NCBI GenBank assembly: GCA_017443235.1
Contig: JAFSOV010000012.1
Span: 1 to 55,558, forward strand
Direction of reading: 5' to 3'
From: Alphaproteobacteria bacterium
Lineage (GTDB): Bacteria > Pseudomonadota > Alphaproteobacteria > Rs-D84
DNA: 55,558 nt
The position numbers and the translations under genes are program-made. The notes below the pieces were generated by a model, which saw only the letters and a program-made list of their open reading frames with translations, did no database searches and was not told the origin of the DNA. Every line of letters begins with the position of its first letter. Positions within the stretch are counted from its first letter, which is position 1. This document shows positions 40,654 through 45,314 of this stretch, in pieces.

Positions 40654-40689
40654 AGGGCACATTATAATGGTTTTATGACAATAAATCAA
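40641..40689. promoter_or_regulatory. Bidirectional promoter sharing a palindromic -10 box
   Basis: The palindrome ATTATAAT (40661-40668) provides TATAAT on both strands. Plus: TTGCTT (40641-40646), 16 nt, TATAAT (40663-40668), with prmC ATG at 40675. Minus: TTGATT (40689-40684), 17 nt, TATAAT (40666-40661), with the M23 ATG at 40653. Each ATG begins 7 nt from its -10 box and neither gene has a Shine-Dalgarno, so both transcripts appear leaderless. The two start codons are only 21 nt apart. Confidence 0.75.
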
Positions 40690-41439
40690 GCCTTTGAAAT
40701 TTTAAAAGATGCCGGGGGCATTCGCGCCGCCCGAATTATCACGGATAATACTAAATATTTTTCGCGCATCCGTGTGTGGCGTATGGCGTGCGCATTGCGC
40801 CGCGGCGTGCCGGTTGCCAAAATAATCCACCAGAAATGGTTTTACGGCATACCGTTTTATACAAATAAATACACATTGGACCCGCGCCCAGACACCGAAA
40901 CATTGGTTGCCGCGGTTATTGCGGATAACCCGGCCGCCCCAAAAATTCTGGACCTGGGGACCGGGACGGGATGCATAATAATATCTTTGGTCAAGAATAT
41001 TCATGGCGCACACGGGGTTGGAATCGACATTTCACGCGGTGCGATTCGGGTCGCCCGCCAAAACATAAAAAATTTCGATTTATCAGACAAAATTAAAATT
41101 ACCCGCGCATCTTTTGACACGCCACACGCGGTGCATGAAAAATTTGATATTATCGTTTCAAACCCACCGTATATCGCGCGTGATGACGCACGTGTTGACG
41201 CGGGCGCACGGCACGACCCGCGGGTCGCATTATATGCAGACCGGGACGGCGCCGCGGCATACGAAAGTATTGCCAGATATGCAAAAAATTGGATTGCGCC
41301 AGGCGGCAAAATCTATCTTGAAATTGGCGACGGCATGGAAAAGACCGTCCGCAAGATTTTTGAAAACGCAGGTTGGAAATTCATCCGCGCCGAATGCGAC
41401 CTTGGCAACATAGTCCGGGTTTTGGTGTTTAAAATTTAA
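40675..41439 (+). CDS. prmC: Release factor glutamine methyltransferase
   Basis: 254 residues. The SAM-binding motif is ILDLGTGTGCIIISL and the catalytic motif NPPYI, the signature of glutamine N5-methyltransferases. An N-terminal helical domain (about 1-75) with YGIPFYTNKYTLDPRPDTET is PrmC-specific. It methylates the GGQ glutamine of RF1 and RF2 in the cytoplasm. It is about 20-30 residues shorter than most PrmC proteins, mainly in the N-terminal domain. No Shine-Dalgarno precedes the ATG; the promoter predicts a leaderless mRNA. Confidence 0.93.
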   Translation: MTINQAFEILKDAGGIRAARIITDNTKYFSRIRVWRMACALRRGVPVAKIIHQKWFYGIPFYTNKYTLDPRPDTETLVAAVIADNPAAPKILDLGTGTGCIIISLVKNIHGAHGVGIDISRGAIRVARQNIKNFDLSDKIKITRASFDTPHAVHEKFDIIVSNPPYIARDDARVDAGARHDPRVALYADRDGAAAYESIARYAKNWIAPGGKIYLEIGDGMEKTVRKIFENAGWKFIRAECDLGNIVRVLVFKI

Positions 41440-41447
41440 ATTTTATA

Positions 41448-41477
41448 TTGGCACTATATATCAAAATATGATATAAT
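41448..41477 (+). promoter_or_regulatory. Promoter of the structured leader RNA
   Basis: TTGGCA (41448-41453), an 18-nt spacer and TATAAT (41472-41477); transcription is expected near 41484. Confidence 0.7.
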
Positions 41478-41483
41478 ACACAC

Positions 41484-41700
41484 AGCCCCAATGATGGGGT
41501 CGTGGGCTGTCACAAGCCTTACACGTTCGGTGCGAAAGCATCGTTAGATTTATGCGATGGTGTTTTCCGCACCGTTGTATCCCTGACTTATGGTCGGGGA
41601 GTCGTTGGTTATACAACAGGGGCAACCCAAAGACCGCGAAATCATTCAACGTGTATGATTGTGAACTCCCCGGCCACATTGCAAATCTTGGTGGCCAATT
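41484..41700 (+). ncRNA. Highly structured leader RNA or riboswitch-like element
   Basis: About 240 nt between a strong promoter and the first gene of a three-gene unit, with no ORF. Stems seen: CGGTGCG/CGCACCG (41528-41534 with 41568-41574); TTGTAT/ATACAA (41575-41580 with 41611-41616); B, CCCTGAC with GGTCGGGG (41581-41587 with 41593-41599); C, GGTCGGGGAGT with ACTCCCCGGCC (41592-41602 with 41665-41675, 11 bp, one G.U); AATCAT/ATGATT (41640-41645 with 41655-41660); D, GGCCAC/GTGGCC (41672-41677 with 41691-41696). B and C share an arm, and C and D share an arm, so they exclude each other in a chain. No T-loop, tag ORF or known riboswitch core is recognised. Confidence 0.6.
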
Positions 41701-41726
41701 TTGATATTGCATAAGGAAACATAACA

Positions 41727-42056
41727 ATGACAAACAAGAAATTACTACCCTTCCTGATAGTTATGACTTTCATTAAACCTGCTATATCGGACGAATACAC
41801 CGAATTGATTGCTTACCGTGACGCATTAAAAGAACAAATAGCCGCGGTTGAATCAGAAACAATCAGATGTGAAAAATCATTAAAAGGTTGGAAAACCGCC
41901 ACAATTATCGGCGGTGTTGGCGCAGTGGCAAGCGGCATAGGGATTATAGCACAAAAAAATCAAATTGACAAAAATCAAAAGGCACTAAACCAAACCGGTA
42001 CCGTATTTAATGAAGCCAACGACGCAATGGATTTTATAAAAAAGGTTAAAGAATGA
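41727..42056 (+). CDS. Small exported coiled-coil/membrane protein
   Basis: 109 residues with a signal peptide (FLIVMTFIKPAIS), a short coiled coil (about 22-50, YRDALKEQIAAVESETIRCE), a Gly-rich hydrophobic segment (ATIIGGVGAVASGIGIIA) and a charged C-terminus (KNQIDKNQK). AAGGAAAC lies upstream. No family is recognised. The layout resembles the next gene, with which it overlaps by 4 nt (ATGA), suggesting paralogous partners made from one mRNA. It is the first gene after the structured leader. The glycine-zipper-like segment could insert in a membrane. Confidence 0.65.
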   Translation: MTNKKLLPFLIVMTFIKPAISDEYTELIAYRDALKEQIAAVESETIRCEKSLKGWKTATIIGGVGAVASGIGIIAQKNQIDKNQKALNQTGTVFNEANDAMDFIKKVKE

Positions 42057-42610
42057 AAAAGTTTTTAATGTATTTAATTATCTGGACTTTTGCACTTCCA
42101 TGCGATGCTGTTCAAATAAAACAAATCGGCGGTTCTAATGATGGCATGGACTATTTACGCAACGAAATTATAAAACTTGAAAACAACTTAGCCAACAAAA
42201 CGGAAAAATTAAATGAATGTGCAGAAAAGAATAAAAATTTCCAAATTGCCGGAATTGCAACTGTTGGTCTGGCGGGTGTGGGTGTTGCGACAAACATATC
42301 ATTGTATTCCAAAATGAAAGACCAGGTAAAACAAGGCGAACAAATGGATACCTATATTAAAAATGCTGAGGCAGATTGGGCTAAATTCGAACAGGGGTTC
42401 AACGAGTGGTCAAAAAATCTTGATGAACAATGTTTTTCTAATTACTATAACACTCAATTAACCCACAGGGAACGAACACGTTTCGAAGATTTATACATAC
42501 ACAGATACAACATAGAAAAATATATCGGTGATGATATATCCGAATCAGATAAAACATTATTTATAAAAATGGCGCAAGGTATGCGCAAATGCCAAAAACA
42601 AAAGGAATAA
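42053..42610 (+). CDS. Exported coiled-coil/membrane protein, paralogue-like neighbour
   Basis: 185 residues: signal peptide (FLMYLIIWTFALPCDA), coiled coil (about 35-62, YLRNEIIKLENNLANKTEKL), a Gly-rich hydrophobic segment (IAGIATVGLAGVGVATNISL, about 67-86), then a longer polar C-terminal domain (about 95-185) with two Cys and Tyr/Lys-rich segments. Same architecture as the preceding gene with an added domain. Function unknown. Its start overlaps the previous stop (ATGA), and the next gene begins 3 nt after its stop, so all three share a transcript. Confidence 0.65.
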   Translation: MKKFLMYLIIWTFALPCDAVQIKQIGGSNDGMDYLRNEIIKLENNLANKTEKLNECAEKNKNFQIAGIATVGLAGVGVATNISLYSKMKDQVKQGEQMDTYIKNAEADWAKFEQGFNEWSKNLDEQCFSNYYNTQLTHRERTRFEDLYIHRYNIEKYIGDDISESDKTLFIKMAQGMRKCQKQKE

Positions 42611-42613
42611 AAA

Positions 42614-42814
42614 ATGAAAACATCGTACAAATTTTTAATATGGTTTGTATATTTATGCCTGCTGGATATTCCATTCGTATTGACCAAGTATTTTTTAGAT
42701 AACGATATGCTGAATAAATGGTATTTCTTTCTTACCGGAATAATGTTTATGTTCATGGGGTGGATGGGGTATGCGTTGGCATCAAAATTATCAAACACAA
42801 AAAAACGTAAATAG
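42614..42814 (+). CDS. Small two-helix membrane protein
   Basis: 66 residues with two hydrophobic helices (about 5-27 and 35-56; FLIWFVYLCLLDIPFVL and WYFFLTGIMFMFMGWMGYAL) joined by a short charged turn and ending in a basic tail (SNTKKRK). It starts 3 nt after the preceding stop. No family is recognised. It is the last gene of the unit behind the structured leader. Confidence 0.6.
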   Translation: MKTSYKFLIWFVYLCLLDIPFVLTKYFLDNDMLNKWYFFLTGIMFMFMGWMGYALASKLSNTKKRK

Positions 42815-42826
42815 GAAAACGTGTCA

Positions 42827-43432
42827 CTATTTGAAAAACGGGTGATTTTGTTTCAACCAACCAATCATAGAATCTTCCCCGTGGCCGTGGACAATGTATG
42901 TATCGTCAGGCAAATGCAGACTTTTCAATTTTGCAATGGATTCTTGTAATTGCATCGCATCGCCACCCGGCAAATCTGTGCGCCCCACCCCATCACGGAA
43001 AATGGTATCGCCGGTCAGTAAAATTTTATATTCCGGAAAGTAAAACATTACACCACCCAAAGAATGACCCGGCGACGCGATAATTTCCATTTCTATATCA
43101 TTCAAAATTTTTGTTTTTCCCGCGTGCAAGTCGTGTGGCGCCACAAAGTCGTCCGGTATGCGTGGTAATTCCCAAAAATCCAGAATTTGGTTTCCCCACA
43201 AAACCAACGGCACATCCGCCGCGTTCATAAACCATGGAATATTATAATGCACCGCTAAGCCGGGCGCCGCCGAAATATGGTCGCTGTGTCCGTGCGTTGC
43301 ATACACCGCACGCAGTTTTAATCCACGTGAACCCAATAATTTTATCCAATCTTCCGCGCGCCCCCACGCATCAAAAATTGCACAATCACCCCCCGATGTC
43401 ACCAAAACAGAATTGGTAAACCGTGGTTCCAT
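42827..43432 (-). CDS. MBL-fold metallohydrolase (glyoxalase II-like)
   Basis: 201 residues from the ATG at 43432, 16 nt after the ftsH stop; the longer frame runs into ftsH and is rejected. Metallo-beta-lactamase motifs: THGHSDH, PGHSLGG, GDTIFRDGVGRTDLPGG and HGHGEDS, typical of the YcbL/glyoxalase II-like group. It probably hydrolyses a thioester or related substrate in the cytoplasm with two metal ions. The Shine-Dalgarno is weak. It may be cotranscribed with ftsH. Confidence 0.88.
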   Translation of the reverse strand: MEPRFTNSVLVTSGGDCAIFDAWGRAEDWIKLLGSRGLKLRAVYATHGHSDHISAAPGLAVHYNIPWFMNAADVPLVLWGNQILDFWELPRIPDDFVAPHDLHAGKTKILNDIEMEIIASPGHSLGGVMFYFPEYKILLTGDTIFRDGVGRTDLPGGDAMQLQESIAKLKSLHLPDDTYIVHGHGEDSMIGWLKQNHPFFK

Positions 43433-43448
43433 TTGCAAGATTTCAAAT

Positions 43449-45314
43449 TTATTTTTTTGCAACCTTGGCCTTTTTGACCGTCGTTTTTTTCGTCGTTTTT
43501 TTACCGACAATTTCCAAGATTTCTTCACCGGTTAATGTTTCGCGTTTCAACAATTCTTCGGCCAATTTTTTGACGGTCGCCTTGTTCTTTGTTAAAATTT
43601 TGACCGCGTCACGGTACGCATCCGCCAACCAAGATTTAATTTCGCCATCCACCATTTCGGCGGTCTTTTCGGACGCATTTTCCAACGGCACACGTGCGCC
43701 AAAGGTTTGTGCCTGGTTGATTGCGACCAAACCGATTTTATTTGACAAACCGGCGGTGGTAATTGAACGCCGGGCCAGGCGCGTTGCCATCGCAATATCC
43801 GATTCGGCACCCGTTGTGATTTTATCCGCACCAAAGAATACTTCCTCGGCCGCGCGCCCCGCCATCGCAACGGCCAAATCCGCGCGCACTTCGGCAATAG
43901 ACATCGATACTTTGTCATCAATCGGCAAATGTTGCACCATGCCCAATGCCCGACCACGTGGGATAATCGTTGCCTTGTGAATTGGGTCGGTGACATCGGC
44001 GTAATGCACACTAACGAACGCATGTCCGGCCTCGTGATACGCGGTCAATTTGATATCTTCGGGACGCATCTTGCGAATTTTGCGCGGGCCCATTATCAAT
44101 TTATCGCGCGCTTCTTCTATATCATCGGGCGCGACCATTTTATGACCGGTGCGCACCGCGTGCAATGCGGCTTCGTTCAACAAGTTTTCCAAATCCGCAC
44201 CCGAACAACCCGTTGTTCCGCGTGCCAAATCGCCCAGGTTCACATCTTCGTGCATTTTAATTTTTTTCGCATGCAATTCCAAGATTGCTTTGCGCCCCGC
44301 CATATCGGGCAAATCAATATGCACCTGGCGGTCGAAACGACCGGGACGTAATAATGCCGGGTCCAACATATCGGGCCGATTCGTTGCACCGATTACGATA
44401 ATTCCGGTTTCATTTGAAAACCCGTCCATTTCAATCAACAATTGATTCAAGGTTTGTTCGCGGTCTTGGTCATTAAAAGAATTTTGGCTGCGCCGTTGAC
44501 CGATTGCATCAATTTCATCAATAAACAGCAAACACGGTGCATTGCGTTTTGCCATTTCAAAAATCTCTTTAATTTTGGCTACGCCCAAACCCACGATAAT
44601 TCCGGAAAAATCACTGCCGGATGCGGCAAAGAACGGCACGTTTGCCTCGCCTGCAATCGCACGCGCCAACAGTGTTTTACCCGTTCCCGGTTCGCCCGCC
44701 AATAATACGCCACGCGGCACGCGCGCGCCCACGGCGGCAAACTTTGATTTATCGCGCAGGAAATCCACAACCTCGGCCAATTCTTGTTTTTCCGAATCGA
44801 TTCCGGCAACATCTTTGAAAGTGGTCTTGGGCTTTCCGGTCACAATTTTTGTTGGGTTCTGCCCCATCAGTGTCCGCGACAATCCCCCCGCGCCACCGCG
44901 CAAACCGCGGAAAATCCACCATATAAAGAACAATCCCATCAAAATCGGCACCCATGTCCCCAGGTAATCAACCCAACCCTTGGACACGTCAATGGAAACA
45001 ACCGTTCCCCCACTGGACAATTTTTCCAACAATTCCGGATTGTATGTAATAACCGCGTTGTATTTTGTGCCGTCATTTAATTGGCCGGTCGCCACATTGT
45101 CGCGAATCTTCATAGTTTTTATTTCGCCCGCCCGACGCAACACATCGGAAAAAGTCATTTCCACCGGTTCATTTGACACAACATCAACGACCGGATTCAT
45201 CCCGCCACGCGACACAAACGCGCCACCAACCAACCCGGCAAACAAAATCGCAAACAGAATTAAAAACAAAGTGGAATTATTGCGTTTCTTATTTTTTAAT
45301 ATATTTTTTTCCAT
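43449..45314 (-). CDS. ftsH: ATP-dependent zinc metalloprotease FtsH
   Basis: 621 residues from the ATG at 45314 (AGGAA upstream; a TTG start further out is less likely). Two transmembrane helices (about 15-33 and 108-128) flank a periplasmic domain. AAA motifs: Walker A GEPGTGKT, Walker B LLFIDEIDAIG, SRH near GATNRPDMLDPALLRPGRFD. Protease motif HEAGH. It is a membrane-bound hexamer that removes misassembled membrane proteins and regulators such as sigma-32 and LpxC. The C-terminus is short and Lys-rich. It overlaps the 3' end of tilS by 26 nt. Confidence 0.97.
   Translation of the reverse strand: MEKNILKNKKRNNSTLFLILFAILFAGLVGGAFVSRGGMNPVVDVVSNEPVEMTFSDVLRRAGEIKTMKIRDNVATGQLNDGTKYNAVITYNPELLEKLSSGGTVVSIDVSKGWVDYLGTWVPILMGLFFIWWIFRGLRGGAGGLSRTLMGQNPTKIVTGKPKTTFKDVAGIDSEKQELAEVVDFLRDKSKFAAVGARVPRGVLLAGEPGTGKTLLARAIAGEANVPFFAASGSDFSGIIVGLGVAKIKEIFEMAKRNAPCLLFIDEIDAIGQRRSQNSFNDQDREQTLNQLLIEMDGFSNETGIIVIGATNRPDMLDPALLRPGRFDRQVHIDLPDMAGRKAILELHAKKIKMHEDVNLGDLARGTTGCSGADLENLLNEAALHAVRTGHKMVAPDDIEEARDKLIMGPRKIRKMRPEDIKLTAYHEAGHAFVSVHYADVTDPIHKATIIPRGRALGMVQHLPIDDKVSMSIAEVRADLAVAMAGRAAEEVFFGADKITTGAESDIAMATRLARRSITTAGLSNKIGLVAINQAQTFGARVPLENASEKTAEMVDGEIKSWLADAYRDAVKILTKNKATVKKLAEELLKRETLTGEEILEIVGKKTTKKTTVKKAKVAKK

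Follow-up and report, generated by a model that had tools for sequence, protein, structure and literature searches.

A leader RNA family of probable C4 type, ending in a terminator-like hairpin, precedes accessory genes in alphaproteobacteria with small genomes

Phages P1 and P7 supply the names a1, b1, a2 and b2 used here for the elements of antisense leaders and, beyond the C4 layout itself, the roles attached to those elements. C4 is described as an antisense RNA that RNase P cuts at a GGW start and whose loops pair near the ribosome binding site (RBS), and multicopy C4-derived small RNAs with a variable antisense loop are proposed for Acinetobacter baumannii (PMC5320573). IsrK of Gifsy-1, tested in Salmonella, is both a terminated small RNA and a leader with two near-equal folds; by way of the alternative folds the terminated form controls, in trans, the read-through mRNA from which it derives (PMC4825925). 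A further RNA, sRNA-Xcc1, is 88 nt long with mapped ends (PMC2996969) and occurs in integron cassettes (PMC12444791); its carriers are cassettes of Xanthomonas and phages.

Here we describe a leader RNA encoded in the window (the whole 55,558-nt stretch of alphaproteobacterial DNA that was analysed), which we consider likely to be a C4-type antisense leader, co-opted from phage immunity control and now acting as an attenuator of accessory genes. The locus is made up as follows.

40675-41439: prmC, the convergent flank of the insert
41440..42826, + strand: accessory insert (promoter, RNA and three genes), 1,387 bp
41448..41477, + strand: promoter TTGGCA-18-TATAAT, beginning 9 bp past the prmC stop codon
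41485..41500, + strand: 5'-terminal hairpin P0 of the RNA
41504..41519, + strand: hairpin P1 (GGGCT/AGCCT), whose loop holds the K1 sense strand
41510-41515 with 41659-41664, + strand: helix K1, TCACAA in the P1 loop (a1-like) with TTGTGA (a')
41521-41527 with 41648-41654, + strand: helix K2, ACACGTT in the spacer before P3 (b1-like) with AACGTGT in the P6 loop (b')
41528..41574, + strand: conserved domain P3 (CGGTGC/GCACCG and an inner helix)
41581..41599, + strand: hairpin B (CCCTGAC/GTCGGGG), contending with helix C for the GTCGGGG arm
41592..41675, + strand: C4-like or sRNA-Xcc1-like 3' domain with a GGT start and helix C as its closing stem
41592-41601 with 41666-41675, + strand: helix C, 10 pairs
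41602..41639, + strand: stem P4/P5 with the internal loop TATACAACA and a GCAA tetraloop (GGG GCAA CCC)
From 41640, + strand: hairpin P6, with b' in its loop and followed by a' (P6 and a' together, 41640..41664)
41672..41702, + strand: terminator-like hairpin D (GGCCAC..GTGGCC) and a short T tract
41713..41717, + strand: Shine-Dalgarno-like sequence AAGGA of gene 1
41727..42056, + strand: gene 1 (109 aa), N terminus resembling a signal peptide, without a Pfam match
42053..42610, + strand: gene 2, 185 aa, signal-peptide-like and coiled-coil-like, no Pfam match over the cut-off
42614..42814, + strand: gene 3 (66 aa), judged by inspection to encode a membrane protein, without a Pfam match
42827-43465, - strand: metallo-beta-lactamase-fold (metallo-hydrolase) gene, the other flank of the insert

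The site of the insert is otherwise empty, as prmC and the metallo-hydrolase gene are just 2-16 bp apart in six genomes (G009, G013, G018, G022, G025 and G027); no integrase was found inside the 1.39-kb insert. In four other species, RNAs that share 97-99% identity over the span between the -10 region and the terminator stand before unrelated genes, and module and cargo thus separate in evolution. The promoter named in the original prediction has 11 of 12 consensus matches, and its figure of about 240 non-coding bases agrees with the ~243 nt that we count from the predicted transcription start to the ATG at 41727. Across the family, a -10-like hexamer (at least 5/6) lies upstream of 73% of copies, compared with 32% of control stretches. 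The fold of the window leader is stronger than that of any of 200 shuffles (z = -4.1).

The leader is a genuine, conserved element whose identity is well supported. The first copies came from a DNA search, as diverged leaders throughout the genus with the window's own genome included, and R1, a covariance model of the 149-nt leader core matching 41528-41676 in the window, recovers an RNA of ~220 nt in 36 of the 39 genomes of the genus. These genomes are of about 1 Mb, and copies number 10 in the window's genome, 20 in G010, 26 in G032 and 49 in G014. Of the G014 copies (e.g. L093, L094, L097 and L098), several stand at contig ends, as if repeats had broken the assembly. R1 also matches in 11 of 18 further genomes of the order and, in a search of 190 genomes of the class, in 7 genomes outside the genus; the named records that bear the core are metagenome-assembled genomes of uncultured Alphaproteobacteria, Proteobacteria and Rickettsiales, and for many of these the isolate names point to rumen or faeces, the others having no stated source. 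In 101 copies, 34 of the 36 modelled pairs show compensatory changes, a level reached by none of 500 shuffles, and 95.8% of alignment cells pair, against 32-43% with slid partners, in an alignment that is fitted to the model; when 29 copies were aligned without such fitting, covariation again scored above all shuffles. Every pair of P3 (6 + 5 pairs) and of P4/P5 (10 pairs) has changed on both sides, and P0 and P1 covary as well.

Stems B, C and D, with their shared arms, lie where the original prediction had put them, and covariation across the family bears out helix C in 8 of 10 pairs and hairpin D in 3 of 7. Hairpin B, which recurs in 97 of 101 copies, shows no covariation and, being nearly invariant, offers no covariation test. 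The claim that the three stems exclude one another holds for the sharing of arms, but by sequence alone C excludes D only in part, because the two overlap by just 4 nt (41672-41675). A D stem of at least 5 bp with a T-rich tail is present in 98 of 101 genus copies, compared with 13 of 80 phage homologues; the T tract of the window leader is short (TTTT).

The best-supported helices of the RNA are two that the original prediction did not list, the hypervariable long-range helices K1 and K2, of which the antisense strand a' sits just before the 3' arm of C. Pairing was judged by exact-match and swapped-partner tests in place of duplex energies, as these were dominated by a GC-rich stem. Two-block pairing of K1 and K2 over at least 11 nt is seen in 94% of copies, a share that falls to 4.5% with swapped 5' partners. 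Among pairs of copies at least 82% identical, the K positions vary 2.6 times more than the rest of the RNA; between two copies that are 91% identical (L012 and L013), three K2 pairs have changed, and in every one of them both strands changed so as to keep the pairing. Identical K1/K2 pairs were seen in 0 of 272 cases within genomes and 11 of 4678 between genomes, which are small counts. A search for trans targets in the window's genome found no TCACAA..ACACGTT site besides the leader itself. The 5' part of the RNA, which had been taken for a ligand sensor, instead bears sense copies of the antisense pair, as phage C4 and CI RNAs do.

At Rfam gathering thresholds the only matches in the window are two tRNAs. 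The original prediction, which recognised no known RNA in the leader, is not quite right on this point: at a low threshold the homologous family sRNA-Xcc1 (RF02221) covers 41593-41682. The match spans model positions 1-87, the full length with structure kept, at 34.2 bits (E 1.7e-4 in the local search), short of the gathering threshold of 53 bits; other genus copies score 43.0 (the best listed), 40.4 and 29.6-35.8 bits. Matches to sRNA-Xcc1 occur in 54 of 299 Pseudomonadota genomes and in 0 of 14 control genomes, and most of the top loci carry upstream the same 5' domain with K1/K2. Because of this upstream domain, sRNA-Xcc1 looks like the 3' half of a longer leader, one of C4 type that precedes antirepressor or symE-like genes (L038-L057 and the phage loci L206-L285), which bears on reports of sRNA-Xcc1 as a free trans-acting sRNA (PMC2996969, PMC12189769, PMC12444791). 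In loci of the sRNA-Xcc1 type (L038-L057), the stretch that separates the sense elements from the C4-like domain resembles an intrinsic terminator (CCGCA..TGCGG with a T run), and P3 of the window leader (41528-41574), with its own T run, may be a relic of that terminator. Near one sRNA-Xcc1-type RNA there is a weak c4-2 match (L045:2890-2958, - strand; 34.8 bits, cut-off 41), and two TwoAYGGAY matches slightly above the cut-off lie at L050:2372-2494 (- strand) and L050:2791-2857 (+ strand).

Phage contigs yielded at least 120 stretches with the sRNA-Xcc1 core, 70 of them scorable for K repeats, and in 93% of these a repeat of the K elements directly precedes the start codon, compared with 16% by chance. 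Seven tested phage downstream genes belong to antirepressor or regulatory families (AntA, KilA-N, P22_AR, Rha, ORF6N and Bro-N). Such a second target over the RBS (a2/b2) is absent from the genus leaders, where complementarity reaches 6.09 nt against 5.88 nt by chance. The genus-specific leader core was found in no viral contig, and the phage origin that we infer therefore rests on these relatives.

An open reading frame starts after helix C in 100 of 100 scored copies, at a median of 46 nt (41-58 nt, 10th-90th percentile). The genes so placed in the genus include those for EcoRI-type, HsdM, Eco57I-type and C5 DNA methylases and an Mrr-type endonuclease, along with a Stealth protein, GT8 and GT2 glycosyltransferases, RgpF and outer-membrane beta-barrels, and many of the remaining products begin like lipoproteins or secreted proteins; a crude rule classes 68 of 98 downstream genes as secreted-like, compared with 18 of 35 window genes, a difference that does not decide for enrichment. 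Methylase or Mrr-type restriction genes stand directly behind the leader at L018, L077, L131, L133, L134 and L016.

The anatomy of an attenuator is present in that hairpin D is nearly universal and that full-length C, when forced, excludes D in the window leader. Predicted minimum folds, which are nested, have K paired in 95% of copies and D formed in 93%. For the window leader the K-paired fold has an energy of -88.8 kcal/mol, compared with -86.7 kcal/mol with full C forced and D unformed; a shortened C and D together, which can coexist because the stretch they share is so small, have -82.2 kcal/mol. Across copies the median cost of forcing C is 10.7 kcal/mol, and the alternative state would thus require strong help. 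Since helix prediction ignores pseudoknots, K1/K2 and C might also coexist.

These structures suggest a model for the action of the leader. Transcription would begin at the leader's own promoter, with a1 and b1 emerging first and b' and a' last. In the predicted default, a' and b' would bind a1 and b1, hairpin B would keep the 5' arm of C, and D would form, such that most transcripts would stop as an RNA of ~215 nt. Were a1 and b1 unavailable, the 3' part would adopt the C4-like domain, in which full C removes 4 nt of the D stem, and polymerase could read through into the downstream genes; K pairing would in this way promote termination, and blocking of a1/b1 would promote C and read-through. 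We propose that the trigger is trans pairing with an RNA of the same K1/K2 type, as in C4, P4 CI and IsrK, and that the partner may be the terminated leader itself or its RNase P-processed 3' part. The GGT start of the C domain (41592) is a possible RNase P site; helix C starts with GGT in 61 of 101 copies, with purine-CC or similar past the stem.

Other explanations account for parts of these data. The original prediction of a switch-like leader stands in its attenuator anatomy, to which some 100 covarying homologues, the terminator and the fixed distance to the start codon can be added, and does not stand as a ligand riboswitch. A metabolite or ion riboswitch, in which the conserved 5'/P3 domain would bind a ligand and choose between C and D, would agree with the complex conserved fold and the alternative helices B, C and D, with a terminator right before the RBS in those 98 copies, and with the variety of downstream genes, as in second-messenger regulons; we nevertheless hold it to be distinctly improbable, given that the 5' part contains sense counterparts of the antisense arm that are hypervariable, in a layout common to phage antirepressor leaders, that the downstream genes share no common pathway, and that a ~1-Mb genome may hold up to 49 copies. 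The antisense layout would equally suit a stand-alone trans-acting sRNA, a repressor or an anti-phage immunity RNA ending at D with the genes as mere neighbours. Its own promoter and terminator, and the multiple copies with diverse antisense arms, like the C4-derived sRNAs proposed in A. baumannii (PMC5320573), are what such an RNA would have. The tight spacing to the open reading frame, the lack of any match to the window's K1..K2 target elsewhere in its genome and the failure to find the genus form in a phage all argue against it, and we regard it as unlikely, if less so than the riboswitch.

The mobility of the module raises the question of whether the conserved element is a DNA recombination seam, such as a cassette end of the integron attC kind, with the RNA fold secondary. 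Blocks that are almost identical from promoter to terminator before unrelated genes in four species, an insert at an otherwise empty site and the report of sRNA-Xcc1 from integron cassettes (PMC12444791) fit this explanation. A seam would not, however, lead us to expect that promoter, terminator and RBS spacing are all conserved, that the stems covary in the manner of RNA with G-U pairs included, or that the insert lacks an integrase, and we consider it the least probable of these explanations, with very little weight.

Returning to the C4-type attenuator, a bolder extension is that these are a diversifying set of self-recognition leaders, in which each K1/K2 would be a specificity tag that lets the RNA control its own transcript alone and promoter-to-terminator modules would gate mobile cargo throughout the genus. 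The cargo would be surface proteins, glycosyltransferases and restriction-modification genes, and the parallel would be with phage immunity RNAs that gate lysogeny; we put this forward tentatively, as a possibility that we think somewhat doubtful. If the C4-type reading is true, a phage-type antisense immunity circuit has been rebuilt to regulate accessory genes across the genus, a terminator taking the place of the RBS target. If sRNA-Xcc1, reported to be trans-acting and virulence-associated, is the 3' half of such a leader, it would gain a testable mechanism, and the fast-changing paired K1/K2 segments would be a direct test bed for the divergence of RNA specificity.

Comparison with the described systems places the leader near each of them and within none. 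Like C4 of P1 and P7, it has a closing stem with GGT, two antisense loops, a location in a leader, and an antisense arm complementary to a1/b1 upstream in the same transcript; unlike C4, it matches neither RF01695 nor RF02944 at E <= 10 within 41440-41740, lacks a2/b2 at the RBS and has gained a terminator. With IsrK (STnc1160) it would share a terminated short RNA alongside a read-through mRNA, and two near-isoenergetic folds that depend on a long-range helix of sense and antisense strands (PMC4825925), although in IsrK the terminator ends a short sense RNA, the antisense part lies beyond it and control is translational, whereas here the terminator follows both parts. The C4-derived sRNAs of A. 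baumannii, like the genus leaders, form a large C4-type family in bacterial genomes; they belong to Gammaproteobacteria, match the C4 motif and, in the accessible part of that report, are not described as terminator-bearing leaders of accessory genes (PMC5320573). The window leader departs from sRNA-Xcc1 in its score, in its intrinsic terminator and in having no K repeat at the RBS, and the downstream genes seen in the genus are neither antirepressors nor symE; the two have in common the closing stem, an ATACAA internal loop, a GNRA-type hairpin, an antisense hairpin and the upstream K1/K2. The leader is thus set apart from RF01695, by the absence of a model match and of an RBS target, and from RF02221, by a score below the cut-off. 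Judged by its sequence, it apparently belongs to a new and expanded family of C4-type leaders in alphaproteobacteria with ~1-Mb genomes, to which sRNA-Xcc1 is the nearest relative.
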